The notes under the pieces: model-generated
What the model was told of the DNA's origin: nothing
The model's database searches: none
The model's input: only the letters and a program-made list of their open reading frames with translations
Source of the DNA: Buxus sempervirens
Lineage: Eukaryota; Streptophyta; Magnoliopsida; Buxales; Buxaceae
Assembly (NCBI GenBank): GCA_947561395.2
Contig: OX387193.1
Location: forward strand, 12,276,001 to 12,340,000
Length of the DNA: 64,000 nucleotides
Direction: 5' to 3'
Position numbers and translations under genes: made by a program
Shown here: positions 1 to 44,758 of the stretch, in pieces
Position numbering within the stretch: the stretch's first letter is position 1
Layout: the number at the start of each line of letters is the position of its first letter

Positions 1-1344
1 TTTACCTCATTGAAACACTTTGGTATCATGTCAAGTAGTGCTAAAATTTTAGGCTCCAATTTGGGGTAGAAATGGTACACTTTGAGCATGAAATCTGGGA
101 TTTTAGGGAATGCTTTTGAGTTTCAAGCATGCTTACATGATTTAATGGTTGTTTGTACAAATGACATGTTTTGTATAACACTTTTTGAACATGTAATATT
201 TTTGTGCATATTTGGTTGCTTTGGCTCTTGCTTGCTTGTAGTTAGCTTCATTATTTTTGTCATATATGCCTTGGCTTGAAATTGAATGCATGGCTACGAA
301 AAAGAGTGGCAAGGGGCTGGGACGTTGTGAATGTTACCACAATTTTAAAATTGCACTTGAGCACTTGAAACAATTTGCACAGCCTACCCTTTTACCTATT
401 AGGAAGTTGAACCATGAATGTGTGTAGCTTGGCGCACTGAGGTCGTGACTTCGGAAAGCGAAAGTGAAAACATTTACCTTAGAATTTGGGTCAATGATGT
501 GATGACAATGGGATCTGTGATTCGATTCCGGGCATCACTAGACTTGAGTTTTAAGTTGCCAATTAAGCCAAAACCCAAAAACCATACGCTTGAAGGTGGA
601 GAAACACGTTTTTGGCTAAAAGCACACAATTGCGTTTGGGGAAATTGGGTGTAAATGTGGGAAGGCCGTTTGCATGTTTTACAGGCCAAGGTATAATGTG
701 AATACCATATTGAATGAAGGTAATACAAGGTGGCAAGGTAAAGCCAAGTCCTTTTCATAAATTTGGGGAATTTTGCAAGTATTATGCCCAAGCCCAATTT
801 GGGGCAAGTTTTGAAGGTTAAATTAAGGTGAACATCAAGTGAAAATGAAAAAAACCTAATCTGGTGAAAAAAATGAGTCAAAAAGGGCCATTTCGGCAAT
901 AACCGGCAACTCAGGCCGGTTAATAACAACTCTGTTCATATCCGGTACATATTTCCGGATACAAAGACATATGCGGATATCCGGTTAGGTTGACCGGATA
1001 CAATAAGGCATATTCTTATCCGGAATAGTATACCGGATACATTCAAAAAATGCACAAATTGGCTTTTCAGCCCAAGTTTTCAGAATAAAATGCCTAAAAC
1101 ACTGTGGATAATCCTTAGGCACCCCGAAAAGAACATAAGAAATGTTCCCAAAAATACAAAAAAAAAAAAACAAAAACAAAAAAGAATAAAATAAAATATT
1201 CTTTCAGGATTTAACCTAAGTTTGAAAATCAAAGAGGAAACCAAGGTGTCATATTTTTTGACACCAACTCAACTCAAACATATGTCAATCCAGCTTTAGA
1301 ACTGGAAAATCTTCTAAAATGCATCAGATTTCAAATCAAAAAAA
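1..1344 (+). other. Tat element leader, non-coding
   Basis: No convincing coding sequence. Short open frames on either strand (82-279, 418-654, 474-929 minus) have no recognisable domain and a composition like the surrounding DNA. The stretch carries palindrome array 1 and ends in A-rich DNA at the start of the minisatellite. I could not identify a primer-binding site, which fits the 5' LTR being some distance upstream. Confidence 0.6.
900..1039. repeat. Palindrome array 1 (4 modules, 39 bp period)
   Basis: Four 23 bp palindromes start at 900, 939, 978 and 1017, exactly 39 bp apart. Each has 7 bp arms around a 9 bp spacer. The first has arms TAACCGG/CCGGTTA, the other three TATCCGG/CCGGATA. 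The same module recurs at 12796, 16921, 17680 and 44516 and, in diverged form, at 22858, 23001 and 25667. Confidence 0.9.
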
Positions 1345-2565
1345 AAATGAAAACCTTGGTTGGTTATTTTTATCAATCAAATCAAAGCATTTGTGGGATA
1401 CTTGGATAGAGTAGTCCAAGACACCTTTGGTTGGTTATTTTTATCAATCAAATCAAAACATTTGTGGGATACTTGGAAGCCCTAGAATATTCCAAGAAAC
1501 CTTTGGTTGGTTATTTTTATCAATCAAATCAAAACATTTGTGGGATACTTGGATAGAGTAGTCCAAGACACCTTTGGTTGGTTATTTTTATCAACCAAAT
1601 CAAAACATTTGTGGGATACTTGGAAGCCCTAGAATATTCCAAGACACCTTTGATTGGTTATTTTTATCAATCAAATCCAAACATTTGTGGGATACTTGGA
1701 TAGAGTAGTCCAAGACACCCTTTGATTGGTTATTTTTATCAATCAAATCAAAACATTTGTGGGATACTTGGATAGATTAGTCCAAGACACCTTTGGTTGG
1801 TTATTTTTATCAATCAAATCAAAACATTTGTGGGATACTTGGAAGCCCTAGAATATTCCAAGACACCTTTGGTTGGTTATTTTTATCAATCAAATCAAAA
1901 CATTTGTGGGATACTTGGATAGAGTAGTCCAAGACACCTTTGGTTGGTTATTTTTATCAATCAAATCAAAACATTTGTGGGATACTTGGATAGAATATTC
2001 CAAGACACCTTTGGTTGGTTATTTTTATCAATCAAATCAAAACATTTGTGGGATACTTGGATAGAGTAGTCCAAGACACCTTTGGTTGGTTATTTTTATC
2101 AATCAAATCAAAACATTTGTGGGATACTTGGAAGCCCTAGAATATTCCAAGACACCTTTGGTTGGTTATTTTTATCAATCAAATCAAAACATTTGTGGGA
2201 TATTTGGATAGAGTAGTCCAAGACACCTTTGGTTGGTTATTTTTATCAATCAAATCAAAACATTTGTGGGATACTTGGAAGCCCTAGAATATTCCAAGGC
2301 ACCTTTGGTTGGTTATTTTTATCAATCAAATCAAAACATTTGTGGGATACTTGGATAGAATATTCCAACCTTTGGTTGGTTATTTTTATCAATCAAATCA
2401 AAAAAAATGAAAACCTTGGTTGGTTATTTTTATCAATCAAATCAAAAAAAATTGGGACCCTTGGAAGCCCTAGAATATTCCATGAAAACCTTGGTTGGTT
2501 ATTTTTATCAATCAAATCAAAAAAAAAAAAATTTGGGACCCTTGGAAGCCCTAGAATATTCCAAC
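1345..2565 (+). repeat. Minisatellite, 17 copies of a 71/76 bp unit
   Basis: The core TGGTTATTTTTATCAATCAA starts at 1361, 1432, 1508, 1579, 1655, 1727, 1798, 1874, 1945, 2016, 2087, 2163, 2234, 2310, 2377, 2421 and 2496, with slight variants. Two unit types are mixed: about 71 bp ending in a GATAGAGTAGTCC type tail, and about 76 bp ending in GAAGCCCTAGAATATTCC. The last copies are degenerate and interrupted by A-runs. Open frames here are repeat artefacts. Tandem arrays in untranslated parts of Tat/Ogre elements are known and can seed satellite DNA. Confidence 0.92.
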
Positions 2566-2751
2566 TCAAAACAAAAACAAAAAAAACAAAAAATCTGGAT
2601 TGGTGTTCACCTAACCTACTGGTTTACATATATAGGGGTGTGACTCAAGTTAAATGGAAGCTAACATGTTCTATTCATTTTTTCCTCAGGTACATTCAAC
2701 CCAAGTACACTTGCAATCATTGCTCCAGTAACTAGATCCAAAGCCAGAACA

Positions 2752-4851
2752 ATGAATACTGAAGAGAACCAAGCCCAAGCTACCGTCCCTGCTCAGGACT
2801 TTACTCAACTGCAGGAGCAAGTGGCCGGTCTGGCCAAAATGCTGGGGGACCTACTGGCGGCTCAGGCCCAACAGGCCCAAGCCCCGAACCAGGCATCTAC
2901 TTCCCATCAGGCACCACCACCTCAGGCCTACATTCCGCCTCCGGTTCAGCCCATGCCTGAGCCCATTTCTGAACCAGTCCCTGAACCCATTCTGATCAGG
3001 GAAAATATGGCGGAGTCTGAGAAAGAGCTGGAGAAAGAAAAGGCCCGAGATGAGATGGAAAAGAAAATGCTGCAGAGGATAGAAAGAATCCAGGCAGAGC
3101 TGAAAGAGGTGAAGGGGGGAGGCAGCCATGCAGGCACCACCTTCGAGGACCTGTGCATGTACCCGGACGTCTGTCTACCGGCTAAGTTCAGGTGCCCGGA
3201 TTTTGACAAGTTTGATGGCACGGGCTGCCCATTAAGCCATCTGAAACTATACTGCGGGGCCTTGTGCCAGTTTGGCCGGGACGATGGAATACTGATCCAG
3301 CTCTTCCAGAGGAGTCTGACCGGGTCAGCCCTTCGGTGGTTCGCTACAGTGGACCATGGAAGAATCAGGAGGTGGAAGGACCTAGCCGACGCTTTCCTGG
3401 ACCAATACAAGTTCAACTCTGAGATCGTGCCGGACCGGTACGACATGATGAGGATGACCAAGGGCAAAGATGAGCCGGTACGGCAGTACGCCAAGAGATG
3501 GAGAGAGGCCGCCTCCCAGGTCAGGCCACCTATGCAAGAGCCGGAGATGATCTCCACATTTATGGGCACACTAGGGCAGCCCTTCTACAACCATCTGGTG
3601 GGTCAGATAACCACCAACTTTGCAGCCCTGGTGCAGGTGGCTGACCGGATTGAAGAAGGGGTTAGGTCAGGACGGCTGATAGACTACTCTACTCTGACTG
3701 GGCAGTCTGATTCCTCTGCCTCCATGGCCCAGAAGAAAGGGGCCGGATTCAAAAAGACGGGGGCCCGAAAAGAAGGGGAGGTGAACCTGGTCCAGGCTCC
3801 TCCAGCCAAGAAGCCACTGCACGTCAACATCTCGGCACCCCAACAGGCCCAGCAGTCGTACCAGACCCCGATGAATGTCAACTTCTCTCCCTCTGTGCCA
3901 GCTAACACAAGGAGGACTTTTTCTAAGGAGGAGCGGGATGCCTGGTTCGCAGCAAGAAAGAACCGGGTTTTCACCCCCCTACCCATATCTCTGTCCCAAC
4001 TACTGCCAACCCTGCTGAAAGGGGAATACTTGACTCTGAAGGAGCCTAACCCGAATGCCACCAGGGGGAGAAATTTTGATACATCGGTCACCTGTGACTT
4101 CCACATGGGTGCACCGGGGCACTCTACTGATACCTGCTGGGTATTGAAGCATGCAGTCCAGGATCTGTTGGACCAGAAGGCCTTGGTGTTCAACACTGCT
4201 GCACCGGCCCAGTCCGGGAATGATATTGGGCAGAACCCTCTGCCTTACCACAATGGGGCAGGCCCATCCAACTCCATCACTGCCATATCCACCACCAGAA
4301 GGGCATTTGACCCATCACAGCTTATAGCACCAGTAGGGACCACTGTCCAGGTCCGTTTCTTCCAAGAAGAGGAAGAAGAGGAGATCAACATGGTCTCCCA
4401 AAAAAACAATCTTGCTGCTGAGGACATAAGCTCCTCCTTAAACCGGGTCTCTTCTCTGATGGCCCAGATAAATACTGCAAGGCCCACATTGGTCTTCAAT
4501 TGCAGTCCACCCACTTGTTCCCCATCCAAGCCGTCTAAGGCTCCACTGGTCATCAATCTTGACCCCACCACTGCTTCCATCACTTTTTCTGTCCCCACCA
4601 AATCCAAACTTCAACCCTTGGTTGTAAATGTGCAGCCAGCCCATACTATCCCTAAACCGGCCCATACATCCCGGTCCAAACTCCAGCCACTAGTGGTTGA
4701 CATCCCTAAATTAGCCTATTCAGAGGCCGCTGTACCATGGAATTACAGCGAGGGAATCACGGCTACGGTTCCAATGGTCAGGAACCAGAACCAGGAGGAG
4801 GTGAACCTCATGACGAGGTCGGGGAGATGTGCAGGGGGTGAAGAGAAATAA
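2752..4851 (+). CDS. gag: Tat element Gag
   Basis: Encodes the structural Gag polyprotein that coats the element RNA. The 699-residue frame begins about 190 bp after the minisatellite. Residues 1-110 are rich in Gln, Ala and Pro, then strongly charged and coiled-coil-like. Residues about 130-310 match the retrotransposon Gag core, with the YCGALCQFG and FQRSLTGSALRWF type motifs usual for the Tat lineage. Near residue 450 lies a knuckle-like CDFHMGAPGHSTDTC motif, the form of zinc knuckle seen in Tat elements. The rest is Pro/Ser-rich linker. The start was chosen because the frame is continuous from there and the usual N-terminal composition follows. The downstream protease frame overlaps its end. 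Confidence 0.9.
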   Translation: MNTEENQAQATVPAQDFTQLQEQVAGLAKMLGDLLAAQAQQAQAPNQASTSHQAPPPQAYIPPPVQPMPEPISEPVPEPILIRENMAESEKELEKEKARDEMEKKMLQRIERIQAELKEVKGGGSHAGTTFEDLCMYPDVCLPAKFRCPDFDKFDGTGCPLSHLKLYCGALCQFGRDDGILIQLFQRSLTGSALRWFATVDHGRIRRWKDLADAFLDQYKFNSEIVPDRYDMMRMTKGKDEPVRQYAKRWREAASQVRPPMQEPEMISTFMGTLGQPFYNHLVGQITTNFAALVQVADRIEEGVRSGRLIDYSTLTGQSDSSASMAQKKGAGFKKTGARKEGEVNLVQAPPAKKPLHVNISAPQQAQQSYQTPMNVNFSPSVPANTRRTFSKEERDAWFAARKNRVFTPLPISLSQLLPTLLKGEYLTLKEPNPNATRGRNFDTSVTCDFHMGAPGHSTDTCWVLKHAVQDLLDQKALVFNTAAPAQSGNDIGQNPLPYHNGAGPSNSITAISTTRRAFDPSQLIAPVGTTVQVRFFQEEEEEEINMVSQKNNLAAEDISSSLNRVSSLMAQINTARPTLVFNCSPPTCSPSKPSKAPLVINLDPTTASITFSVPTKSKLQPLVVNVQPAHTIPKPAHTSRSKLQPLVVDIPKLAYSEAAVPWNYSEGITATVPMVRNQNQEEVNLMTRSGRCAGGEEK

Positions 4852-6448
4852 AAAGAGACAGAAGTGGAGAAAGAAAAAAAAGAAAATGAAGAAAAAAGAA
4901 AACAGAAGGGAAAAAAATAAAGTAGGAGAAGACACCCCCCAGGGTGCAGAAAATGAGGCAGCTGACCTCATAAAAATAATAAAGAAAAGTGAATTTAATC
5001 TTGTGGATCAGCTAAACAAGGTCTCGGCCCAGATTTCAATACTGGGCCTTTTGCTGAATTCTGAAAAGCACAGGGATGCATTGTTAAGGGTGCTACAGAG
5101 TGCACACGTATCCCAGACAATTGATCCAGACCAGCTTGGTAAAATGGTTGGTCAAATCTTGTCACATAATGTGATAAGTTTCTCAGAGGGTGAGATCAGC
5201 CCAGGTGGGTGTTATCATGTGGACCCTTTGCACATCACTGTGCTTTGTAAGGGCTGCATGGTTGCACGGGTTTTAATTGACAACGGGTCAGCGTTAAACG
5301 TTTGCCCGTTAATCACTTTTACCAAGTTGGGCCTGGACCAGTCAAGGATCAAAAGAAATGGGCGAATAGTAAGGGCTTTTGATAGCTCCAAGACCCACTC
5401 CCTAGGGGAGATTGAACTGCCGGTCACAATTGGGCCGAATATCTTTAACATCACATTTGAGGTGATGGATATACCCGCAGCCTTCAATCTGCTCCTAGGA
5501 AGGCCGTGGATACATTCGGCTAGGGCAATACCATCCACGCTCCACCAAAGGGTGAAATACATAAGAGGGCAAAGGGTGATAACAGTCCTAGCCGAAAACT
5601 TGGTGCCGCCCATTGTGTCACCTGATGTACCATTAATCAATGTGGACTTGACTGTCGACAAGATTGCATTCCACTCATTTCAATTTGAGGCGGTAAATTA
5701 CATACCTGGGGGGTGTGAGAAAAAGAAAGAAAAAGGGACCACTGCAGAAAAGATGGTCAAGAAAGTGATGGAGAAATACCACTTTCACCCAGGGAAAGGC
5801 CTGGGGATCAATCTGCAGGGGATGGTGGAGCCAATCACGGCTAAGAAACTGATCCCCAACGTAGGGTTGGGCTTCAAGCCCAGAGGCTGGAGAAGAATGA
5901 AGCACGAAGAAGGGGAGAGCAGAAGCCAAGGAAAACTCCCGCATCTGAGGGTGAACTTTCCAAAACCCTCCTACATAATCCAAATTTCTCCTCCTATGGA
6001 CCAATCAAAACCCCCATACCGAAATGTCAACCCATTTCAGAAGCCTGTTGTTTCGGCCCTACAACCTTATAACCCTTCTCCAATACTGGGAGCAGTGGAT
6101 GGGCCTGGACCACAGCCCGAGCAGCAGGTGGACTTTTCTGAAGATGTTGGTGCATTCTTCGCCATGACTGAAGGCGAAAAGACAGGGGCAGACATGGAAC
6201 TGCCATTCATTGATTGGGCCGCAGTGAAGATTCCAGACAAGGTCATTTCTGGATTGGGCCCCGCAGCAGAAAAGGGCAGTACCCACCCGGTGATGATGGC
6301 ATCGGATGCTGGGCTTGAGGAGCAGGCTTTCCCTATTTCCCCGGCTCCCCATAATTTTGTACTGAACAATTGGGAGGAAACTCCCCTTACCTTTGAAGCA
6401 GCGTCTGTGTGGCAAACTGACGCGGCTTCCAAAAAAAAACTCCAATAG
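4829..6448 (+). CDS. Tat element protease with G-patch-like segment
   Basis: The N-terminal stretch is highly basic and low-complexity. The retroviral-type aspartic protease lies around residues 140-240, with catalytic LIDNGSA (the D-x-G triad) and a downstream LLLGRPWIH motif that closes the fold. After it, residues about 310-355 read as a G-patch-like segment with GKGLG and VGLGF glycine motifs. G-patch domains next to proteases are known in some retroviruses and plant gypsy elements and are thought to bind RNA. The C-terminal 150 residues are an acidic linker. The frame overlaps gag and is followed by the RT frame; the frame arrangement may be native or may reflect decay. Confidence 0.85.
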   Translation: MQGVKRNKKRQKWRKKKKKMKKKENRREKNKVGEDTPQGAENEAADLIKIIKKSEFNLVDQLNKVSAQISILGLLLNSEKHRDALLRVLQSAHVSQTIDPDQLGKMVGQILSHNVISFSEGEISPGGCYHVDPLHITVLCKGCMVARVLIDNGSALNVCPLITFTKLGLDQSRIKRNGRIVRAFDSSKTHSLGEIELPVTIGPNIFNITFEVMDIPAAFNLLLGRPWIHSARAIPSTLHQRVKYIRGQRVITVLAENLVPPIVSPDVPLINVDLTVDKIAFHSFQFEAVNYIPGGCEKKKEKGTTAEKMVKKVMEKYHFHPGKGLGINLQGMVEPITAKKLIPNVGLGFKPRGWRRMKHEEGESRSQGKLPHLRVNFPKPSYIIQISPPMDQSKPPYRNVNPFQKPVVSALQPYNPSPILGAVDGPGPQPEQQVDFSEDVGAFFAMTEGEKTGADMELPFIDWAAVKIPDKVISGLGPAAEKGSTHPVMMASDAGLEEQAFPISPAPHNFVLNNWEETPLTFEAASVWQTDAASKKKLQ

Positions 6449-10972: not shown

Positions 10973-12665
10973 CTAGTCTCCTAGCCGCTCCTCAAGCTCC
11001 CGAATCCGAGCTGCCTGAGCTGCAATGACTCCTGAAGCCCCCTCTGCAGCGGGATCACTCAGGAAGGAAATGACCTCATCTGAAAGGGCCTGCCTGATCC
11101 GCATACTCCTAAGGCTGGCCAAAGTATCCTGGTACTTCTGCCGGATCATACGGACCTCGAAGCGACGGGCCTGCCTCTGCTCCTCCAGCTTCTCTTCCAC
11201 GGCAATACGGCGGGAGATCTGTTCCTCAAGCTGCCTCTCCAGATAAGCGCCCTGTATCCTGAGCTCTTGGGCCTCCCGTACCCATATCTGCTGAAGCCGC
11301 TTATGAGAAGCCCGCTCAGACTCTAGAATGTCCTCATAGGTGGGAGCCAAGACTACAGGAGGATCTTCGGGTACCGGGGCCTGAGTCTGTATCTGCTCCT
11401 TGATCCAGAAGAGATAATCCTTCACATGGGCTTCTGAGAAGACCGGACCATGCATAAAGCGGACATAGGACCATTCCTTCATCAACCAGGCATTCAGCTT
11501 CATAGACAAGGGCCCAAGACGATCCTCATATCCACATGGGATGATAATCCCCTGGGTCGCTCGGAACTGACGAAGGACCCGCAGAGGAAGATACAACACT
11601 GCATGCTTCAGGCCCGCTAGGATCAGAAAGTTGCGGTCACGGAAGCTAATCACTGTCTCTGCATTAGGCTGATAAGTACCAGGCCATCTCACCTGGTCAT
11701 CCTGAAGCGAGCCCAAGAAAGTGAACCAGCCCTGTTTGCCCCCTGGAATATCAGGACACCCCCTGTTACTCATCAAGAGGGGAACTTTTAGACTCGGGAA
11801 GAAGTGCCGATTGATCTCTTCAATCTGGCTCAAATGATCAAGTAGCCAAAGCTGCAAAGGAAGAGAGAGGTGTCAGCACATTGTAAAAAAAAAAAAAAAA
11901 GGCAAAAAAAAAGAAAGCCAAAAAGCAAGGAAAAAGAAAAAAAAAACTTTTTTTTACCTGCAGGATCTGGGCACATGCTAGGAAGCGTTTCGACTTTCTA
12001 TGGTAGCAGTCGGTTAAGGCCTGATACATCTCAGCTAAAATCATAGGGGCCAACCTCTCCCTCTCCCTAACCTGGCATATCACTGAGATCAAGGCCAAGT
12101 CCACCTCGTCATCCTCCCGTGGGAAAAGCAACTGGTTGACCACTATCAGGGTCAACGCATTGAATCGGGCCTCCTTATCTTCCCCCCTCAAAAGCTTCTC
12201 AGTCAAAAAAGCCTTAGATAGGGTCAAAAGGGTGTCAGAATCCCCTAAGTCCTTCTTCCCTATGCCCAAAAAAGTAGAAGCTTCCTTCTTGTAACTGGGC
12301 CTAAGAGGTGGATTCACCACCTTCTCATCAAACCTCAGGCCCAGGATGGTTTCCACCTCCTCAATGGTTGGGGTCATCTCATGGGTCCCAAAACGGAACA
12401 AGTTGAGATCAGGAACCCAATGACCAATCATGGCCTCTATAATCTCCCACTTGAAGGGAACTTTGGGAATGAGCAGGGTATGGCCTAGGTTGGTAGTACC
12501 CCATCTCCTCTCCTCATCTAGGGTCATAGAGTTAACCCACCTTGTGTAAAAGGAATCCACAGGGTTGTACCTAGTGAGATTTGGGGGTTTTGATCTAAAA
12601 GGCTGTTTTGCAGGGGAGGCAGTGTGGACAGACAATAACGGGGCAGAAGATGATCCGGATTCCAT
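10973..12665 (-). CDS. Antisense gene A of the Tat element: DUF7745/PMD-like protein, two exons
   Basis: Not a retroviral gene; it runs opposite to gag-pol. Exon 1 is 12665-11958, the intron has GT..AG ends, exon 2 is 11851-10973. Both junctions keep frame and give 528 residues without a break. ATG at 12665 was preferred over 12758 because a TATA box at 12782-12776 would place the transcript start below 12758. Residues about 60-330 resemble the DUF7745/plant-mobile-domain kind of fold: a Trp-rich start, then a FRFGTHEMTPTIEEVETILGL type motif. The last 130 residues are a charged coiled coil (ILESERASHKRLQQ onward), suggesting self-association. PMD proteins in plants include MAIN and MAIL1, which act in silencing, and PMD occurs in gypsy and MULE elements. 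Family assignment is from motif memory; function unknown. Confidence 0.75.
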
Positions 12666-12775
12666 TGGATTTGACGGGAGCAAGCTAGAACTCAAGAGGA
12701 GGAAGAAAAAGGCGAAAAAGGGGTTTTCTAAACTCAAAAACTCGTAAAAAATGCTCAAATCCCGAGGCAGGTTGC

Positions 12776-12782
12776 ATTTATA
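12776..12782 (-). promoter_or_regulatory. TATA box of antisense gene A
   Basis: On the minus strand the bases read GCTATAAATGC. The box is 111 bp upstream of the chosen ATG and 14 bp downstream of palindrome array 2, so the array sits directly upstream of this core promoter. Confidence 0.6.
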
Positions 12783-12795: not shown

Positions 12796-12934
12796 TATCC
12801 GGTAACTCAGACCGGATACAAAGGCTTTGGTAATATCCGGATAAGTATACCGGATACAAAGGATCCCATGAATATCCGGTATAACATACCGGATACAAAG
12901 ACCAATCCATGTATCCGGTATGTCAGACCGGATA
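12796..12934. repeat. Palindrome array 2 (4 modules), upstream of antisense gene A
   Basis: Modules start at 12796, 12834, 12873 and 12912 (intervals 38, 39, 39). All four have perfect TATCCGG/CCGGATA arms and a 9 bp spacer. The linker after the first three begins CAAAG. The array fills the gap between the 3' end of gene B and the TATA box of gene A. Confidence 0.92.
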
Positions 12935-13140: not shown

Positions 13141-15831
13141 CTACTCCTGTGCAGGATCATCCCCGCGTCCTCGGCTGCGTCCACCTCTACGGCGTCTCCC
13201 CCAAAGGGCTCGGCCTCTAGAGTATGCAAGAATCCGCTCGGCCGCATGGCGAGGATGCCGACCTACCACCTGCTGAAGATGATACTCCAAGCAATAATCC
13301 TCGAGATCCGGGGGAGGAGCAGGAGTAGAATCGGGGGAAGAAGCCTCGGGCTCAGCAGCAACCGGCCCAACTGGGCCCTCATCCAAAGCATCCTCTGCTC
13401 CCGCAGCTCTAGAAGGCCCAGCATCAGCAGCAGAGGGGCCAGGATCAGAAATAGCTGAGTCCACAGAAAAGAGAAAAATCAGAAGATTCAGATATAAGGA
13501 AGAATAAAAGAGGAGAATGAAAAGAAGATCATACCAGGAATGTCTGCAGAAGGAGCAGGGGGATCCGGCTCGTCAGGGTCAGCAGCTGGGACATCCACAG
13601 GATCAGAGGCCCGAGCAGGAGATGGGTCAGGAATCAGGAAATCATGCTCAAAGAAGGCATCCTGATCATGGACCGGGCCCTGCACAAGTCAAACAAGCAT
13701 ATCAGAATAGCAGAAACAGGAAAATAATGAAAGAAATGAACATATGAGAAGGCTAGATACCTGTCTAGACTGGAGCTCAGCAACTAGGGCCTCCAGCTCC
13801 CTGATCCGGGCATCCCGCTGGGCCACGACCGCATCGTGCTCCGCGATCATATCATCAATCGCAGCCCGCTGGCTCTCGAACCGGTCCCGAATGGAGTTCA
13901 GCTCGTGTACCTGCCAATAAGAACGGAAGCATGGTCAGAAAGGCATAAGGAAGGAAAAGAGGATAAAAATGGGAAGAGTACAAGGCTTACCGTGTCCTCA
14001 TGGATCCGGATACGGATCCCGCCAATCTCAGTCACCCCAGCACGAGTGGGTCGATCCATCAAGCATCCGATAGACACCCGCTGGAACCACTCGTCATAAT
14101 CTCCAGCTACTGTAAGCCCCTCCGCATCCAAGAAGTGATCGAACTGATCAATATCAAAGCCCGGGAGGAGTGTGTCGGGATCCACAGCAGGAGGAGGGAC
14201 GGGGATGCGAAGTGCGCCAGTGTGCTGGTAGTACAGGCGCTCTCCCAAGTACATCACCCTACCAAGCCTCCCAAGGAAGCACTGGTAAGGCTGACGTCGG
14301 AGATCTCTCTCAAAAGCATCCTGTACTGCCATCTCACGGGCAACTCCGACATCCACGTCATCTGGACGGGATAGAATGAGCTGCAAAGAAGCAAAGTGGT
14401 CAGATACAGTCAAAATACAGGAAAGAAAATAAAAGAAAAAAATAGAGGACTTACATCAGATCGGCGTGCACGGTCTAAGTGCACCCGAGCGGTACGAGGC
14501 TGGCTCCTATCGGCATCTCGAACCTGGGCCGACCATCGCAGGGCCACAGGAAAATCCGCAACCTCAGGAACCGGGGAGGGACGGAAGAAGGTCATATAGG
14601 TGTACGTGAACACCTAGCAAAGGAAAAATCAGTCAAGAAAGGATAAAGCCTAAAGAATTAAGCCAGACAGATGAATGCAATACCTGTAAAATCTGCCAGA
14701 AGAACCTGCTGCTGACTCCATCACCTCTCGGAGATGCTAAGCCTCGAACCGCTCGGCACAGCCCGGCCAAGATGGTCCCATAGATCAGCCGACCCCATGC
14801 TAGCTGGCGGGTCTGATAGAAATCTCTCAAGGCGTCCAAAAAGAGCGGACTGACACCGGTAGTATCCTCCGGGAAGAAGCAGCTCCCCAACATCAGCAGG
14901 AATACATGTCGGAAAATCGGCGCAAAGGCTGCATCCTCCACAGAAACGGTCTCGTGCCTCCTCTCAAAATGGCGAGCCAGACTCTCCCGCAGCCAGCTAA
15001 TGGAGAGCCGGCCACTCCTCCCATCCCAGGCAGTAGGTGGCAGGGCCTGATACCCCAAAAGGAGGCCAATATCCTCCGAAGAAGGCCGCTCCAAGACAAT
15101 GGTCCGCCCCGTCAGAGGAATGCCCGTAATCATCACAAAATCAGAGGGGCGGATCCCCAGCTCCACGTCTGGCAGATGGAATGACTGAGTCTCTGGGAAG
15201 TATCTCTCCATCATGGCAAAGATGAGTGGACGATCGGCTCGGAATGATGGAATGCTGAGGAAGTGATCCAGATGGCATCTCCCAAACTCCCGCCTGAGTG
15301 CCGGAGAAAGTGACCGTGTCAACTCGCTGAATCTCCCCCAGCTGCCGCGCAAGTGGGAAGAGTAGTAGGGAAGCGGCACATCGGCCCTGATGCACATGGA
15401 GGGGTGGCTATCCAAGCCATGGAGGAGCTCTGTATCATGCACAGAAGCCCTCAACTCCTCAGAGACCCCTGCCAAAGCTACAGCAACCCCCTCCGGAGCC
15501 ATATCTCTGGCTCTGCCTCGGCCTCTACCACGGCCTCTCTCGCCCTCAGGGGCCTGATCCTGAACTCTACCTCTGCCTCTGCCTCGACCCCGAGCCGGTG
15601 CAACCACGGGCTAAAATTCAAGAGAAAGGTGTGAAGGTTGTGTGGGAAAGGAGAATAGAAGAAAGAAAGAAAGGAAAATTTTTGAAAGCCTACCTCAGCA
15701 GAGCTCTCTCGAGAATCGCCTAATGGCTCGGACAGGGTGGCACTAGAACTAGTCTCAATCCGAGCTCGAGAAGAAGAAGGCCGGTCGGCCGGGTCAACCT
15801 CCTCACGCACACGAGAGCGACTCCTAGCCAT
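13141..15831 (-). CDS. Antisense gene B of the Tat element: plant mobile domain protein, seven exons
   Basis: Exons on the minus strand: 15831-15694, 15610-14684, 14613-14455, 14380-13991, 13910-13761, 13679-13535, 13454-13141. All six introns have GT..AG ends and the frame carries through to a 740-residue product. Exon 1 is Ser/Arg-rich. Exon 2 starts with Arg-Gly repeats, then the PMD core: a LRREFGRCHLDHFL type motif followed by MERYFPETQSFHLPDVELGI and VMITGIPLTGR, close to the WRPETHTFHLP...LTGLP pattern of MAIN-like proteins. Exon 5 is a coiled coil; exons 6-7 are acidic and Pro-rich with an Arg/Gly-rich tail that could bind nucleic acid. The gene probably acts in the nucleus. It shares no obvious sequence with gene A beyond the general PMD look. 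Function unproven. Confidence 0.82.
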
Positions 15832-16920: not shown

Positions 16921-16982
16921 GATCCGAATACTCAGGCCGGATACCCGCAGACCCTGTATTATCCGGATACACTTACCGGATA
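16921..16982. repeat. Palindrome array 3 (2 modules)
   Basis: Modules start at 16921 (arms GATCCGA/CCGGATA, imperfect) and 16960 (TATCCGG/CCGGATA), again 39 bp apart with 9 bp spacers. The array lies upstream of the antisense 5' leader of gene B. Confidence 0.85.
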
Positions 16983-17588: not shown

Positions 17589-17679
17589 TGTAGACACCCC
17601 AAATTGCACAAACAATCATCAAAAATCATTATCTCCTGGAAAGCCAGCACAGAATTTGAAGAAAATATACTTTTACCTG

Positions 17680-17819
17680 TATCCGAATACTCAATCCGGA
17701 TACAAGTACACTTTCCCGTATCCGGATACTCATACCGGATACTTGTGGGCTTTAGCGTATCCGGTACCATGTACCGGATACCTTAATGCCCTTTGTTATC
17801 CGGTCTGACATACCGGATA
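17680..17819. repeat. Palindrome array 4 (4 modules) in LTR U3
   Basis: Modules start at 17680, 17719, 17758 and 17797, exactly 39 bp apart. Three have perfect TATCCGG/CCGGATA arms; the first has TATCCGA on its left. The array begins 91 bp into the LTR and ends about 160 bp upstream of the TATA box, where LTR enhancers usually lie. Confidence 0.93.
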
Positions 17820-17976
17820 CCTTAAGTTTGCTCAAAATTAGGGTTTTCCGAGAGCTTTTCACTTTTACCATCATGTCCCTCATTAAATGAGGGGAAATCG
17901 CGGAAATAGCCTTAGGGTTTAGGTTGGAGGGGTTCTAGACATTAATTTGTGTCTACCAATGACCTTAGCCCTTGCC

Positions 17977-17984
17977 TATAAATA
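17977..17984 (+). promoter_or_regulatory. TATA box of the Tat LTR
   Basis: TATAAATA within CCTATAAATAGG, also present in the solo LTR at 44340-44347 in reverse. Transcription would start around 18010, marking the U3/R boundary. Confidence 0.75.
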
Positions 17985-19854
17985 GGAGCCTCCTCCTTGA
18001 GCAAATGACACACAACTCTTGTTTTGAATTCTCGCAAAGAAGAACTCCAAGAGAAGAAGGAAACCGCTGTGGAATCGCCTCCAGAACTCAGGTAAGCCTC
18101 AACTTTTCTTTTTATTTCTGTCTTTACATTCCTAGATCTAGATCTCTTCTTCTACCTTTCTGTAGTGTAAAGCCTTGTTTGTATGTCCTTCCCTGGCTCA
18201 AAGTATCTCAAGACTCCCCTAGCCGTAAAACGTGAAGGCGGATCTAGGAGAAAGGAGACTGGGGATTGACCCTAGTACTAGAACCTATGTAGCGTAAGGC
18301 CTTTTTGATTGATTGTAAACCGTTCCATATTCAAAGTACCCTTGATTATCTTAAAGAGAACAGAGGGAAACGATAATGAAACGGAACCCTAGGCTATGCT
18401 AGAACCTATTTTATTGAATCTATATGCATGTGTATGGATCTTGCTAGGTTTTTTTCACTTTTGCACACATATCACTATTTTGGCGGGATAGGCTCATATT
18501 TGGGGTTTATTGCATTTATTGTGATAAATCTCAAATAAATGGCCTCAATCAATTCTGGAATGCCTTTCGGATGATTTTGAAGTATTTGTGTTCATCTTAC
18601 ACGAATTTCATTTTTTATCAATTTTCGGATTTGGTTTTTACTCAAAAATGGCTTAGCTTGACAGCACCTGTACCCTTACTTCGGACGTCCGTAACTTCAT
18701 CATCCGGATGAATTTTGGGGCGATTCTAGAACCATGGGAAAGGTGAGGCTGTCTAGTTTATGTCCACCAAATTTCATGATTTTCTATCTAGCCGATTTTT
18801 GACACATCTCTGTCGAAGTTGAGTGGACAGTTCAGGTCCAAGAACAGAACTTGTCACTTCGACGGACCGCCATGTGTTCGTTTTAAGTCCGATTAGAGTG
18901 ATTTTTGTTTCTGAGTACTCCTTTATGTGTCTATTTTCAAATCCAGTTGGTTTCATAATTTTTGAACTCCATTTGAATTATTGGTAGCCGATTTACTCAG
19001 AACTGCTCATTTGCATTTTTCTGGGTAAATCTGTGATCTTCGGGGCCTGTTCGGGAGACCACCCAAGGCACGTCCGAAGGGATTTTTGTATGAGGCTAGT
19101 TTCTGTTGAAAGATGGCCATACAGACTTCAATCACACCAAATTTCACGGATTTCTATGTAGTGGATTTTTCTAGACAATTTTCCAAAGTTGCCCACTTAC
19201 CACTTTTAAAAATCCCCAACAGCAACTTCAAAGGAGCATAACTCCTAGATTTTTCATCGGAATGAAGTGAAATTTTGCATGAGACTCTTGTTTACCCTAA
19301 TCTTTCAAATGGATTTGGTTTGGGTCAATTTAGAATCGGATTTGAATGATTTCAAGGCAAATGGTATACTTTTTACCAAATTTTCCGAATTTGATTTAAC
19401 TTGGTTTTGAGCAATTTGTGCTTTGATTTCCATCTTTTGAGATATTCCAGAAATGATATTGACATAAGAGAGGATCTAAAATCTATTTAGATCTTCATGT
19501 GAAAATATCATACATTAATCCTTTTTCAAGGTTTTCTATGATTTTTAGCAAGCTTTCTTACTTTATTTTTTGCATGAACATACACTTGGCAACCACTTCA
19601 TGTGGATGAATGGGGGTGCCTAACACCTTCCCCCGTTCATAATCTAATCCCCTTACCCATCTCTGGATTTGATTTTCAAGTAGGATTATTCTTATCCTAG
19701 AATGTTTCTTTTGGCTATTTTTGCATACTTTTGAATCTTTGGTGTCCATTCTCACCCCAAAATCATGAATGGTGGCGACTCTCCCAATTTTTGCGTTGAG
19801 CCCGTGTGTTGACGGAGGGACGATCACTCCGGTGATTTTTTCCCATGTCTCACA

Positions 19855-20584
19855 GGTTCTATTCGTTTCCTTTTTTTCCTTGGCGTCTTTATTCTCTTAT
19901 TTTATCCCCTCATCTTTGGGATCTTAGTATGCTTTTGGATCATTCTCCATGGTTATGAAAAATATCCTTTAGTTTACAACATGTACCTCTCTACAAAGGT
20001 CCAGATTTGATGTGTATTCTATGAGAATGCGTCTTCTGTCCGTTTAAAGAAATCATTGTGATTCCATTGTCAAGTTTATTTTTATTTTTTTTTTAGCTCA
20101 CATAGCATTTATCTGTCTCTCGTTCACAGGCTAATCGCGCGACACGCGTCCCGTTCAACCTTTAGAAGTTAATGGGGTTAACATTGGAATGATTTCATTT
20201 TCTTCCATTAAAATATTAATAGATCATTGACGAAGAGGAAGGGACTCCTCTTCTTTTCCCCTCTCCTCTTGCTCTTCCTCCCTCTTTTCTTATCCTCTTC
20301 ATTTTTCTGCAACCGGAAACCATTCAAGCGACGCACAAGAAACTCCGGCGGCAGCACAAGCAGATTCGAACGTACTTGTTGAAGATTGAAATAAGACAAG
20401 TTGCTGGAAGCTTCCAGTTGAATACAGTTTCAAAACATGCTGAGCTATGCAGATGAGTCCCGAAAGTTTGTTTTGTTTGTTAAATCTTTTTTTCAGTTTG
20501 TTGGGAGTTTGTTGGTTGGAAGTTGGAGTCTATTAATCTGTTTTCTGTCTTCTTGATATCTACTTAAGGGTCCAACTATGTAAT
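19855..20584. other. Flanking DNA with one arm of a distant inverted repeat
   Basis: The first 250 bases are T-rich without features. From about 20112 to 20390 the sequence matches 29560-29818 in the opposite direction. The rest, to the TRIM, contains no gene I can support. Confidence 0.5.
20112..20390 (-). repeat. Left copy of an inverted repeat pair (partner 29560-29818)
   Basis: Read on the minus strand it matches the right copy closely over about 260 bp, including an open stretch with NGFRLQKNEEDKK-like coding and the end words GGGACGCGTGTCGCGCGATT. By eye roughly nine of ten bases agree. The pair probably represents two members of one dispersed repeat rather than one foldback unit, because unrelated elements lie between. 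Confidence 0.7.
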
Positions 20585-21054
20585 TGTAACGACCCAACCC
20601 AGCGAGGTATTGTCCACTTTGGGCCTAAGCCCGCATGGTTTTGTCCTTAAAAGGCACTTCGCTTGGTTAAGTATTCTCTCTGACTCTTTTACTATATCGG
20701 ATATTCATCCGTTTCCAATGTGGGATTGGGATATCACAATCTCCCCTCCTTTAGAGCTGCACGTCCCTGTGCAGTGGCCACCTAGAAGCCTGCCAGCCCC
20801 TCATGGGCCCGCCCTTGTCGGTTCAACCACCTCCTACAGGCAACACCAGGACCCACACTAGCCACAGACTACTAGACCTAGAACCAGCTCTGATACTATT
20901 TGTAACAACCCAACCCAGCGAGGTATTGTCCGCTTTGGGCCTAAACCCGCACGGTTTTGTTTTTAAAAGGCACTTCGCTTGGTTAAGTGTTCTCTCTGAC
21001 TCTTATACCATATCGGATATTCATCCGTTTCCAATGTGGGATCGAGATATCACA
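20585..21054 (-). mobile_element. TRIM (miniature LTR retroelement), 470 bp
   Basis: Two 154 bp LTRs, 20585-20738 and 20901-21054, face the minus strand: each starts TGTGATATC and ends TTACA. Next to the 5' LTR, minus-strand AATAGTATCAGAGC is a slightly changed initiator-Met primer site. AAAGGAGGGGAGAT before the other LTR is the polypurine tract. The 162 bp interior codes for nothing, so movement would depend on another element's enzymes. I see no clean target duplication (GTAAT against ATTAA). The element looks structurally whole and fairly young, the LTRs differing at only a handful of sites. Confidence 0.85.
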
Positions 21055-22390
21055 ATTAACGCCCCGGTTCCAAGTCATTTTCCCAAACCCATGGTGTTAT
21101 GGTAAGTAATCAAAAGCAACTAAAGTAAGGAGTAATTTAAAATTTTTAACATCTTTATTATTAGTGTAAATGCGGAAACACGAGATAAAGTTTATTATTG
21201 ATTAAGGGAATTTCATATACAAAAGATTCTAAATCCATGAACAATTCCACAGTTATATGGACTACCCCGTTACAACTAATCGAAAGTTTGACGTCATTGC
21301 CAAGAGTACTTGAAAAATGGGAGAAACTGGAGTGAGAATAAATCTCAACAAGTAGCAATGTGTATGATGTAAAACAGTCCATAATTTTAACAATAATAAT
21401 CATGAGGTGAAACGATAAAACCAAACCATGGTAATATTCACAAATCAATTATCAAACCACACATGTGTAACCAGATAGGACTCGTGATCTAAAACCACTT
21501 AATAAGATATTCCTGCCCTCATATTTCCCCACATCACAACTTACATGATAGATGGAGCCCGCACCTGTAGTCATTGCCATCTCCTCCGTCAACCACTAAC
21601 GCGGATCACCCACGAATGAGTTTGCGAGTACAATCCCTAGTCCAAATAACAACAAAACCCGCTTCCGCAGAAATAATAAACCAGGGGAATACCAATCCGA
21701 TCAAAGATAAATGGACCCACGACAACACAACTAATATCAGTGCATGTGCAAGTCATGAGTGAACTTCAAGCACGGCCCAATCATAGCTCCAAAGGTGCGA
21801 GTCACAAGTAACCTATTAACATGACCAATATAAAGTTTGTGAAAGTCGATGTCTCATTGAAGCACACGGTGGTAACCCAAATAACCAACAATCCAATAAA
21901 CTGTTGCCAATCGACAAACTCGGCTAAGACCAGGCTGCACCTGCAGCGGTCGGGGATTGCTTCCAACGTCGCACCACACCTGCAAGTACGACGAAACGCA
22001 TACTAGGGAGTTCCGAACAGGAAGTAACTTACCAGACAATTTCATTTCACTTCCTAGCTAAGCTATGGATCCATACTAAGCATTGCTCACTAAACACAAC
22101 TCACAATCAAAGCATTGCAATATTCAGTAATAAACCTCATACCAGTAATCATAAACATGTCCCAATGATGTGTCCAATAGTAATTTCCAAAACCACTGTG
22201 TCAAACCAAAAGATATTCAAAATAACCATTACACAGCTCTTAAACAGAGTTCTAGGTCATTTAATAAGAAAGGTACATGTAAGCACTTCATTTTTGTGCT
22301 TCTGGAAAAGCCGGAAATGCAAAACTCGGCTAAAAAGTCAAACCCTGAGGGGTCAAAAATTGATTTTTTGATCAAGTGAAAATTGGCCAC
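21055..22390. other. Probable remnant of a chromovirus-type LTR
   Basis: No coding region. It begins TTAACGCCCCGG, similar to the TGTAACGCCCCG start common in plant chromovirus LTRs, and carries AT-rich DNA plus a GC-richer patch near 21950. I see no matching second LTR or gag-pol, so this is a weak call. Confidence 0.3.
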
Positions 22391-22857: not shown

Positions 22858-23101
22858 TATCCGACCAAATATGTCGGATACACATACCTCAGTGTATAAC
22901 CGACACTATTCATCGGATACAAAGAGATTTTCCAGCGAGATTCGCGCCGATTCCCCGACAAATTCGCGACGGCATTAAAATTTCGAATAATTGTGTTTTG
23001 TATCCGGCATTTAGTGCCGGATTCAAAGGGAGATGTGTATAGCCGACCATGGAGGCCGGCTATGAATGATTGCTAGTGTATCCGGCATATAATGCCAAAT
23101 A
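22858..23101. repeat. Palindrome array 5 (5 diverged modules)
   Basis: Modules start at 22858, 22897, then 23001, 23040, 23079. Within each run the interval is 39 bp, with 9 bp spacers. Arms vary: TATCCGA/TCGGATA, TAACCGA/TCGGATA, TATCCGG/CCGGATT, TAGCCGA/CCGGCTA, TATCCGG/CCAAATA. Several variants keep pairing through matched changes in both arms. Confidence 0.85.
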
Positions 23102-23114: not shown

Positions 23115-23140
23115 TATAAAAGGGGGCAGCAGCCCCCTTT
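23115..23140 (+). promoter_or_regulatory. TATA box and hairpin of the diverged LTR
   Basis: TATAAAA at 23115-23121 lies just below palindrome array 5. It runs into a perfect inverted repeat with 9 bp arms, AAAGGGGGC and GCCCCCTTT (23119-23127 and 23132-23140), around AGCA. Confidence 0.55.
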
Positions 23141-25666: not shown

Positions 25667-25728
25667 GATCCAGCAACTCAGGCCGGATCACCTATTGCTT
25701 GTGCTTATCCGGCAGCTAAGGCCGGATA
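25667..25728. repeat. Palindrome array 6 (2 modules)
   Basis: Modules start at 25667 (GATCCAG/CCGGATC) and 25706 (TATCCGG/CCGGATA), 39 bp apart with 9 bp spacers. This pair lies near the far end of the diverged LTR, well away from its TATA box. Confidence 0.85.
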
Positions 25729-33608: not shown

Positions 33609-33615
33609 CCAAACT

Positions 33616-37900: not shown

Positions 37901-38106
37901 AAAATTACCACAACCAAAACATCAATAATCCTGCATCTAAAACATGCGAGATAAATTACAAATACGCCAATTAATCCAATTAATAAATATAATTAATTAC
38001 AATTAATTCAATAAATCCCTCAATAATTAACAAAAAATTACCAAATTAATTTCAAGTAATGTCAAACACAACAAAACATAAGAATATTGGAAACTGGGAT
38101 GTTACA
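34926..38106 (-). repeat. AT-rich block ending like a reversed chromovirus LTR
   Basis: Non-coding. The right edge, GGGATGTTACA at 38096-38106, is the reverse of the TGTAACATCCC start typical of Tekay/Del LTRs, and a 3 kb size would fit. The left edge abuts the gag fragment, but I found no target duplication. Small open frames inside are not supported. Confidence 0.4.
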
Positions 38107-38217
38107 CTAGGTGAGAAACTCAACCCCATATTTCTTGTCTAATCTCTCTACCTCTTCTATTTTTTTTCCTCTATGCTATAAATCCCGATATTTCAGAGAG
38201 CTTGAGCAGAGCAAAGC

Positions 38218-40343: not shown

Positions 40344-40348
40344 GTTCT

Positions 40349-41447: not shown

Positions 41448-41449
41448 AT

Positions 41450-41461
41450 TGGTATCAGAGC
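41450..41461 (+). other. Primer-binding site of the sirevirus
   Basis: TGGTATCAGAGC, complementary to the 3' end of initiator-Met tRNA, two bases after the LTR. It starts minus-strand DNA synthesis in this family. Confidence 0.9.
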
Positions 41462-41489
41462 GGGTAACCAGATCCTTGACTCGGTTAGT

Positions 41490-42256
41490 CATGGACAAGT
41501 CCTCCACTGCCCCCACCCTTCTTTGATGGCAGCAATTATGCCTACTGGAAAGTTAGAATGAGAGCCTATCTGAAGGCTATAGATGAAAAAGTTTGGGGAA
41601 GTGTTGAGAGAGGATGGAATCCTCCAACTGTGATTATAGATGTTGAGACAAAAACCAAAGACCCAGATAACTATACTAGAGAAGAGTTGATTGATGTTAA
41701 CTACAACTCTAAGGGTGTCAATGCACTTTTTAGTGCAATCTCTGCTGATGAATTCAAACGGGTGTCTACATGTCAAACCAGTAAAGATATTTGGGAAATT
41801 CTACAATCCACTCATGAGGGAACTGTCCTTGTGAAGAACTCAAAATTGCAGATGCTTATCACTAGGTTTTGAAGAACTAAAAATGGGAGATGATGAGTCT
41901 TTCGATTCCTTCTATGCTAAACTAAGTAATATAGTTAACTCTAGCTTTAACCTTGGTGAAAGAATTCCTCCAAATAGAGTGGTTAGAAAAATCCTTAGAT
42001 CTCTTCCTGAAAAATATAGACTCAAAGTCACTGCTATAGAAGAGAGTAAGGATATTAATGGCATTAGGGTTGAAGATCTCATAGGTTCAATTCAAACTTA
42101 TGAACTCACTCTTCCTCCGTCTAAGAAGAATAAGTCTATAGCTCTCAAATCTAGTAAAGAAAAGACTTATAATGATTCTAGTGAGGAATCCATGGGAGAC
42201 GAAGATATTGCCCTGTTAGTGAAGAACTTTAGGAAAATGTTTAGAAGGAGGAAACT
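41490..42256 (+). CDS. gag: Sirevirus Gag, N-terminal part
   Basis: Encodes the capsid-type part of copia Gag: NYAYWKVRMRAYL, then an ISADEFKRVSTCQTSKDIWEIL motif, MGDDESFDSFYAKLS and RKILRSLPEKY, the usual UBN2-type Gag pattern. The part is broken and is cut by the Tat solo LTR at 42257. The remainder of Gag resumes beyond 44763. Confidence 0.85.
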
Positions 42257-44758
42257 TGTGAGGCACGGGAAAAAATCATCGGAATGATTCATCCCTCCGT
42301 CAACACACGGGATCGACATAGAAAGTGGGAGAGTCGCCACCATTCAGGTTTAGGGTGTGAATGGACACAAAAAAAAATCGAAAATCATCAAAAAGTGCGA
42401 AAAGGCCAATTCTAGGGTAAAAATAACCCTACTTGAAAATCAAATCCAGAGATGGGTAAGGGAATTAGATTATGAAGAGGGGAAGGTATTAGGCACCCCC
42501 ATTCACCCACACAAGGTGGTTGCCAAGTGTTTGTTCATGCAAAAAAAGAAATAAGAAAGCTTACTAAAAATTATCAAAAACCTTGAAGAAAGGCCAAATA
42601 TATGATATCTTCACATGAAGATCCAAATGGATTCCAGATCCTCTCTTATGTCAATATCATTTCTGGAATGTCATAAAAGGATAAAAATCCAAGCAAAAGA
42701 GTGCACAAAACCAAGTTGAATCAAATCCGGGAAATTTGGTAAAAAGTAATGCCATTTGTCTTGAAATCATTCAAATCCAATTTTAAATTGAACCAAACCA
42801 AATCCATTTGAAAGATTATGGTAAATAATAGCCTCATACAAAATTTCAATTAAATCCGGTTGAAATTCTAAGAGTTAAGCCTCTTTTAAAGTTGCTGTTG
42901 GGGATAATCAAAAGTGATAAGTGGGCAACTTTGGAAAATTGTCTAGAAACATCCACTCCATAAAAATCCACGAAATTTGGTGTAATTGAAGTCTGTATAA
43001 CCATCTTTCAAAAGAAACTAGCCTCATACAAAAATTCATTTGGATGTGCCTTGGGTGGTCTCCCGAACAGGCCCCGAAGATCACAAATATACTCAGAAAA
43101 GTACAAATGAACAGTTCTGAGTAAATCTGTTACCAATAATTCAAATGGAGTCAAACAATTATGAAACCAATTGAATTTGAAAATAGACTCATAAAGGAGT
43201 GCACAGAAACAAAAATCACTTGAATCGGACTTAAAACGAACACATGGCGCTCCATCGAAGTGACAAGTTCCGTATTTAAACCTGAACTATCCAGTCAACT
43301 TCGACAGAGAGGTGTAAAAAATCGGCTTGATAGAAATTATTGAAATTTGGTGGACGTAAACTAGACAGCCTTATCTTTCCCATGGTTCTAGAATCGCTCC
43401 AAAATTCATCCGGACGATAAAGTTATGAGCGTCCGAAATAAGGGTACAGTTGCTGTCAAGCTAAGCCATTTTGAGTAAAACCAATGCAAAAACTATGACC
43501 AAGTATGTGTAATTCGTGCAAAATGAACACAAAACCTTTAAAAATCATTTAAAAACATTCCAGAATTGATTGAGGCCATTTATTTGAGATTTATCACAAT
43601 GAATGTAATAAATCCCCAAATGTGAGCCTATCCCGCCAAAATAGTGCCATGTATGTGCAAGTGTGAAAAATCATACAAGATCAATATAACAATATATCAT
43701 ACATACATATTCACCAAAATAAGGTTCTAAAACAACCTAGGGTTCCGTTCCATTATCGTTTTCCTTTGTTCTCTCTCCCCGTTAAACACGGTTCTTCAAG
43801 ATAATCATGGGGTACTTTGAATATGGAAGGGTTTTCAAAGAATCACAAGGCTCATAGCATGCATTCAAATTAATAAAAAAAAAAAGGATCTAGAACACCC
43901 TAGGGTTCCATTCCATTATCGTTTCCCTTTGTTCTCTCTCCCCGTTAAACACGGTTCTTCAAGATAATCATGGGGTACTTTGAATATGGAACTGTTTACA
44001 AAGATTCAAAAGGCTTATAGCAAAGAGGTTCTAGCACTAGGATCAATCCCTAGTCTCGTTTCTCCTAGATCCCGCCTTCACGTTTTACGGCTAGTGGGAG
44101 TCTCGAGATACTTTGAGCCGGGGAAGGGTTTTCACACATATAAAAAGACATTATTCTACAGAAAGGTAGAAGAAGAGATCTAGATCTAGGAATGTAAAAA
44201 CAAAATTTAAAAAAGAGGTTTGAGGCTTACCTGGATTCTGGAAGCACTTCCGCAGCGGTTTCCCTCTTCTCTTGGAGCTTTTCTTGGCAAGAATTATTGG
44301 CAAGAGAGTTAATGGTCATTTGCTTAAGGAGGAGCCTCCTATTTATAGGCAAAGGCTAGGGTTAGGGTTGGTGAGAATGGTAGACACAACATAATGTCTA
44401 TAGCCCACCAACCTTAACCCTAAGGCTATTTCCGAGATTTCCTTTCATTTAATGAAGGACATGATGGTAAAAGTGAAAAACTCTCGGAAAACCCTAATTT
44501 TGAGCAAAACTTATGTATCCGGTATATCATGTCAGATACACAAGTACCTTAATGTATCCCGCCTAGGAGGCCGGATACACTGAGGTTAGCTTGTATCCGG
44601 TATGTTCCAGCGGATACAATGGAAAATACTTGTATCCGGCCTGAGTTACCGGATACAAGAAAAAACACATTTTCTTCAAATTCTGTGCTGGCTTTCAAGG
44701 AGATGATGATTTTTGATGATTATTGTTTATTTTGACTGTGCAATTTGGGGTGTCTACA
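42257..44758 (-). mobile_element. Solo LTR of the left-hand Tat family, 2502 bp, inserted in sirevirus gag
   Basis: On the minus strand it begins TGTAGACACCCC and ends TGCCTCACA, the same termini as the 3' LTR at 17589-19854. Flanks AAACT (42252-42256) and AAACC (44759-44763) are a target duplication with one mismatch. It keeps the palindrome array and TATA box. A partial internal duplication of about 170 bp near 43735-43990 (repeated GGGTTCCRTTCCATTATCG words) helps explain the extra length. A solo LTR arises by recombination between the two LTRs of a full element. Confidence 0.92.
44516..44655. repeat. Palindrome array in the solo LTR (4 modules)
   Basis: Modules start at 44516, 44555, 44594 and 44633, exactly 39 bp apart, all with 9 bp spacers. 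Only the last has perfect arms; the others have one or two changes (TCAGATA, TATCCCG, GCGGATA). It lies at the same place in U3 as array 4. Confidence 0.9.

Follow-up and report, generated by a model that had tools for sequence, protein, structure and literature searches.

Palindrome arrays of fixed geometry as candidate operators at the LTRs and antisense genes of Tat-like retrotransposons in Buxus sempervirens

We analyzed a 64,000-nucleotide stretch of the Buxus sempervirens genome (contig OX387193.1, positions 12,276,001 to 12,340,000; referred to below as the window), in which a palindromic module, TATCCGG-N9-CCGGATA, recurs in seven short arrays, four of them in a retrotransposon that fits the Ty3 Tat clade. 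Judged from the sequence, the module arrays are a real and strongly constrained cis-regulatory cassette, as recognized by the 9-bp spacer, the 16-bp linker, the conserved arms and the conserved placement. The modules probably serve as operator sites for one dimeric DNA-binding protein, which would co-regulate sense and antisense transcription. The position of the arrays beside the TATA boxes of the long terminal repeats (LTRs) and ahead of two antisense genes goes beyond what a preliminary description of this DNA had reported.

That description had placed 25 modules in the window, and all 25 were found, each with at most three mismatches to TATCCGG-N9-CCGGATA and 13 of them exact. At this threshold the window contains 29 matches, whereas 100 shuffles gave 1.19 on average and never more than 4; the four additional matches (at 11125, 22639, 59006 and 60735) correspond to about the chance expectation. 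When at most one mismatch is allowed in each arm, the two arms are paired across a gap of 9 in 20 cases, and a right arm is separated from the next left arm by a gap of 16 in 13 cases: the 39-bp period arises because a 16-bp linker follows every module. The one 38-bp interval that had been claimed is indeed present (12796 to 12834) and corresponds to a linker that differs by 1 bp.

The geometry holds well beyond the window. The source genome (676.5 Mb) was searched with the pattern and, as a control, with the pattern read backwards. The whole-genome scan called for in the preliminary description yielded 28,399 exact occurrences of TATCCGG-N9-CCGGATA, versus 5 for the reversed control. Spacers of 10 to 40 (31 lengths) summed to 2,410 (control 55), which supports a preference for 9 bp over the range of 9 to 40. 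Among the matches listed for spacers 10–40, those that are legible lie inside arrays, and they arise because a spacer beginning with ATA recreates the arm. The period is equally fixed: CCGGATA-N16-TATCCGG is found at 17,900 places (control 0), and linkers of 17 to 46 at 4,009 (control 62); among the matches listed for the latter, nearly all have a linker of 28 or 29 bp, resulting from the same overlap, and one is a true 17. A count of TAV...BTA (2,387, with a control as high as 693) was not used as a test.

The modules had also been ascribed to Tat elements. The domain content of the window element agrees with this setting: it comprises gag, an open reading frame (ORF) with a G-patch domain (4814-6445, between gag and the reverse transcriptase), the reverse transcriptase, two RNase H-type domains, an integrase, two antisense genes encoding a plant mobile domain (PMD) and a 3' LTR. 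In the domain scan, the pol ORF shows RVT_1, then RT_RNaseH (474-578) and RVT_3 (633-751), ahead of the integrase; a second RNase H domain after the reverse transcriptase–RNase H is a hallmark of the Tat clade. The PMD ORFs lie on the minus strand between pol and the 3' LTR, as do antisense ORFs in the Ty3 Tat clade. All this fits the assignment of the modules to Ty3 Tat-like retrotransposons. As for their restriction to such elements, arrays were present in 2 of 12 random 10-kb stretches, both times inside LTRs of the Tat-like kind, while 2 more stretches had one weak match each; this light sample settles the question of occurrence outside Tat elements only partially. No antisense ORF of the TRP28 type, typical of the Retand lineage, was detected, the Pfam scan of minus-strand ORFs giving PMD/DUF7745 or no family, and no env was found among the window ORFs scanned. 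A search with the pol ORF matched no viral contig; a looser double pattern matched 2 viral and 15 prokaryotic contigs.

Four further copies of the element (E1 to E4, on contig C1) have LTRs of about 2.27 kb, an internal region of about 18 kb and LTR pairs that are 98.2-100% identical, and are flanked on both sides by a repeated 5-mer (by eye). They share a layout with five array places: arrays of four modules stand in each LTR, in the leader and in front of antisense gene B, and an array of two precedes antisense gene A. The window element shows all of these except that of its 5' LTR, which lies outside the window (Table 1). The first interval of the gene-B array is 38 bp in E1, E2 and the window and 39 bp in E3 and E4; an interval of 38 bp occurs twice in another copy, L059. 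The leader of the window element also contains a 71/147-bp tandem repeat array (1356-2403).

Table 1. Module arrays, associated TATA boxes, LTRs and antisense genes in the window
Feature	Position	Strand	Remarks
Leader (5' untranslated region) array, 4 modules	900..1039	.	First module TAACCGG...CCGGTTA; no TATA box close on either side
Antisense gene B, DUF7745/PMD	10976..12665	-	Exon 1 about 12665-11958, splice site by eye
Gene-B TATAAAT	12776..12782	-	14 bp from array B
Array B, 4 modules	12796..12934	.	Ahead of antisense gene B; window and copies
Antisense gene A, PMD	13150..15831	-	PMD at 15610-14636; start by eye, 3' limit approximate
Array A, 2 modules	16921..16982	.	Ahead of antisense gene A; window copy without TATA-like TTTATAAG
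3' LTR (TGTAGACACC...TCTCACA)	17589..19854	+	Repeat ends; ends same in E1-E4
LTR array, 4 modules	17680..17819	.	3' LTR of window element
LTR TATA box TATAAATA	17977..17984	+	180 bp after start of module 4
Array of second, LTR-like region, 2+3 modules	22858..23101	.	Same geometry in L056
TATAAAAG	23115..23122	+	Second LTR-like region, directly downstream of 2+3 array
Two further modules	25667..25728	.	Second LTR-like region; first module GATCCAG...CCGGATC; no TATA box near
Solo LTR of related subfamily	42253..44759	-	Inside copia element; boundaries approximate
Solo-LTR TATA box TATAAATA	44340..44347	-	
Solo-LTR array, 4 modules	44516..44655	.	

The placement of the arrays relative to TATA boxes is also conserved. 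Measured from the start of module 4, the LTR TATA box begins at 180 bp in 8 of 9 LTRs (7 of 8 in E1 to E4, plus the window) and at 179 bp in the 5' LTR of E3. On the minus strand, TATAAAT stands 14 bp from array B in all six copies. The 2+3 geometry of the second, LTR-like region recurs in L056, where it is followed by TATATAAAG. A TATAAA within 165 bp that points away from the array accompanies 4 of the 7 window arrays, whereas randomly chosen places average 0.99 (P 0.011), the box counted for the solo LTR being a different one from its own, which lies at 169 bp. We infer that the TATA-linked array sites are promoters. Genome-wide, the LTR TATA 19-mer occurs 5,269 times and the 18-mer around the gene-B TATA box 500 times; among the matches listed below C1:5.93 Mb (by eye), an exact module lies within 300 bp of 14 of 15 LTR TATA motifs.

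Conservation within the arrays is concentrated in the arms. Across 11 LTR arrays, differing sites amount to 99/3,080 in the arms (3.2%), 677/1,980 in the spacers (34%), 736/2,640 in the linkers (28%) and 2,390/13,396 in the flanks (18%). The corresponding values for arms, spacers, linkers and flanks are 3.7, 15.2, 10.7 and 7.3% in the leader arrays (six copies), 1.8, 7.0, 13.1 and 5.2% in the gene-B arrays (six copies) and 2.9, 16.7, 20.0 and 25.7% in the gene-A arrays (five copies). Arms far better conserved than spacers and linkers are what a protein touching both arms would be expected to leave, a view that these figures partly support. CG and CHG sites decay in methylated repeats; the conservation of the arms is all the more telling because they hold such sites. 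In the window element, the ratio of observed to expected CpG reaches 1.24-1.45 in the four arrays, compared with 0.58 in the remainder of the LTR and 0.40 in gag-pol; the other three arrays have 1.53, 0.65 and 0.96, and the window as a whole 0.60. Note that the earlier statement that spacer bases vary freely is correct as regards different module positions but not as regards copies: each position preserves a good part of its spacer from copy to copy.

On the reading that we favor, each arm would constitute one half-site and, because the half-sites are 16 bp apart centre to centre, i.e. about 1.5 helical turns, the arms would lie on opposite faces of the DNA. The modules of one array would act together as a cassette, and one paired protein would switch the LTR, the leader and both antisense units together, while binding would be coupled to host silencing through methylation of both CCGG cores. 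Any factor that binds the module is a candidate for regulating a large family of transposons; with an operator of such abundance common to the LTR and the antisense genes, the roles of the antisense genes and of the PMD could be tested with one probe.

Several observations weigh against the operator reading. Most of the compared copies were located by exact module matches, which favors conserved arms. The contrast in favor of the arms is, however, also seen in the four LTR arrays found otherwise (two in the window, two in random stretches), where 6.2% of the sites differ in the arms, 37.5% in the spacers and 36.1% in the linkers, and the two randomly sampled arrays compared with each other give 3.6, 47.2 and 45.8%, respectively. 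The TATA linkage is uneven: no TATA box lies close to the leader array or to that at 25667; the equivalent place at the gene-A array is occupied by TTTATAAG in two of five copies and by TTTACTTAAG in the other three, including the window; and the distance from array to TATA box is not the same in the different promoters (14 versus 158 bp). The array at 25667 is not enriched in CpG either (0.65). Finally, the changed arm positions in 81 distinct modules comprise 36 altered on one side, 9 altered alike on both and 1 altered differently on the two, and such a predominance of symmetric double changes is also predicted by a hairpin.

If the modules are operators, their binding protein is more likely to be a host factor captured by the element, for two reasons: nearly identical half-sites occur in an unrelated Ty1 element, a Citrus Sirevirus (AATCCGG-CTWR-CCGGATT, PMC2829016), and LTR arrays persist in shorter relatives whose gene-B promoter was not found. 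The near match to the Citrus box hints at one host factor used by unrelated retroelements. An LBD-type host factor was also considered, but found no match in a search of the open-access literature.

Less probably, the element would itself encode the binding protein: an antisense PMD protein would act on the LTR as well as on the promoter of its own gene, in a feedback loop like that of foamy virus Tas. The operator is common to both possibilities, which differ in who encodes the protein. The occurrence of the same operator in the LTR and in front of the two antisense genes is consistent with such a loop, as is the purifying selection on gene B: when five copies are compared over the 215 codons retained, each of the 10 pairs gives a dN/dS of 0.06-0.19 for exon 1, which indicates that the protein has mattered to the element. 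One stop is present in each of E3 and E4 and a 57-bp deletion in E2. Antisense genes of Tat elements have moreover been proposed as regulators (available parts of PMC11963269 and PMC7264820), and host PMD proteins are required for the expression of genes sharing a motif (available parts of PMC7156037 and PMC9899485).

The distribution of the gene-B TATA 18-mer cuts both ways. Inspecting the listed matches by eye, we delimited 20 element spans; as the spans were defined by LTR arrays, all 20 have them. The exact gene-B TATA 18-mer is kept in 8 of 9 spans of 20.1-22.7 kb, in favor of the feedback loop. By contrast, it is found in none of the four spans of 14.8-16.1 kb and in none of the six tandem units of 15.3 kb, all of which still carry LTR arrays; one 33.7-kb span is also without it. 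Gene B may still be present where this exact 18-mer is missing. At one locus (G000 C1:8464298-8571570), LTR motifs recur about every 15.32 kb, eight in a row, apparently reflecting elements chained in tandem through shared LTRs.

DNA binding by the PMD is itself putative; no solved structure matched. The PMD ORF had no homolog in the protein database searched. Two plus-strand PMD ORFs at 58434-63391 probably belong to another element. We considered that this element might have a similar palindrome system and rejected the idea, since no array is present in its promoter regions (57250-58600 and 61650-62010), which also speaks against the PMD as the binding protein. It is doubtful that the element forms a self-contained regulon, in which antisense PMD proteins would bind the cassette both in the LTR and at the promoters of their own genes while shorter elements lacking these genes ride in trans. 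If true, the regulon would mirror in a plant the Tas circuit of foamy virus, and the PMD would be a direct sequence-specific regulator, suggesting an origin for that role in the host proteins MAIN and MAIL1.

It is more unlikely still that the modules function as RNA hairpins or DNA cruciforms, for instance by giving rise to small RNAs or during reverse transcription, with the letters of the arms unread by any protein. The folding z-scores of three array RNAs (-7.2, -8.7 and -8.6) agree with hairpins but are expected of any palindromes. Within the window, pairing exceeds that in shuffles at arm position 3 (p 0.004), at the spacer ends (p 0.0015) and at flank position -4 (p 0.0005), among 19 positions tested, a signal that could be left by a hairpin or by the copying of one arm from the other. 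The symmetric double changes described above point the same way, as do the small RNAs drawn to Sirevirus palindromes (available parts of PMC10760457 and PMC5311732). Compensatory arm changes were rejected as proof of pairing: related copies show the symmetric variants at identical places in the array, so that the variants represent few events. The spacer of the first LTR module of E4 (L037:613-635), inverted relative to E1 and E2, would suit a hairpin too; it suggests strand switching between arms, which could also make the arms alike. On the other hand, nearly all modules have the same arm letters, a sameness that pairing alone does not need, and hairpins leave unexplained the fixed 16-bp linker and the TATA-linked placement. 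Stable asymmetric arms also exist (GATCC/GGATA in gene-A module 1, in 5/5 copies; TAACC/GGCTA at many listed places), and for this reason hairpins as the sole role do not lead.

Lastly, that the arrays are a functionless by-product of repeat slippage and copying in a successful family, with arms that look kept since the copies are young, is very improbable: the near-identical LTR pairs of E1 to E4 do imply that many copies are recent, an ACTCA core recurs in the spacer of module 1 in several arrays, so that the arrays may derive from one cassette, and tandem repeats are common in Retand elements (available part of PMC11963269), but in the same copies the arms are far better kept than linkers and spacers despite their CG and CHG sites, the geometry is retained while the linkers change, and the comparison of the two randomly sampled arrays already disfavored this explanation.

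Two other features of the window were observed. A CACTA-like non-autonomous element at 53091-55448, with ends CACTACAAAAA and TTTTTGTAGTG (by eye), has GC-rich inverted-repeat arrays of its own, with periods of about 40 bp (53414-54254) and 37 bp (55122-55308). At 20581-21056, two 160-bp direct repeats that are 92.5% identical resemble the LTRs of a small minus-strand element of the TRIM type.

The preliminary description knew of no named element of this kind. A related one exists: according to the available part of PMC2829016, Sireviruses carry repeated motif (RM) boxes, palindromic repeats that have a CGG-CCG core and form CpG islands, both in the LTR, ahead of the TATA box, and in the linker domain, ahead of env, the Citrus motif being AATCCGGCTWRCCGGATT. 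Small RNAs map over these palindromes, for which a cis-regulatory role is cited (available part of PMC10760457). The likeness is close: the Buxus sempervirens module, which contains CGG-N9-CCG, also lies in the LTR upstream of the TATA box, with more copies ahead of extra genes, and is CpG-rich, and its arms are nearly the same as the half-sites of the Citrus Sirevirus. Like the RM-box CpG islands, most window arrays, except that at 25667, are above the element average, as judged by the observed/expected ratio only. Sirevirus is nevertheless a Ty1/copia element, whereas the modules reside in a Ty3 Tat-like element with RNase H domains before the integrase; the spacer is 9 bp, versus a few bases in the available RM consensus list, and the 39-bp period is fixed; and the arrays stand ahead of two antisense PMD genes rather than a sense env, and in the leader too.

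Antisense accessory genes are shared with the Tat, Retand and Grande elements. Those of Tat/Grande are possible regulators and have their own promoter in Grande (available parts of PMC7264820 and PMC11963269), and the Retand antisense proteins with a TRP28 domain are predicted to bind DNA (same sources). Here the genes encode a PMD, and one putative palindromic operator is common to the LTR and to them, an arrangement of which the available parts of PMC7264820 and PMC11963269 make no mention. Retand elements are also smaller than the present family, their ranges being 315-1,194 bp for the LTR and 7.4-12.9 kb for the internal region in the part of the source available.

Bovine foamy virus Tas binds both the LTR and an internal promoter (available part of PMC4929722). 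The likeness lies in this two-promoter layout only, the shared sites here being at the LTR and ahead of the antisense genes, at presumed promoters; foamy virus is a retrovirus with a sense-strand gene and no sequence relation, and an element-encoded binder is only putative in Buxus. Genes carrying the DOWN motif, which reads CATGCAGTTT in the promoter of MORC1, depend for their expression on the host PMD proteins MAIN and MAIL1, direct binding having been left open (available parts of PMC7156037 and PMC9899485). As here, a PMD is tied to a promoter motif, and the motif differs from the window palindrome. The subterminal repeats of the CACTA transposon En/Spm are bound by TnpA; they too form arrays of a short motif near a promoter with a link to methylation, in a DNA transposon and with another sequence and geometry.

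In the open-access literature, we found no earlier description of TATCCGG-N9-CCGGATA arrays, and the papers matching the arm letters look unrelated (best 15 of 2,923). From what its sequence tells, the module system is of a known palindrome kind, here in another retrotransposon superfamily, to which is added a putative operator common to sense and antisense units.

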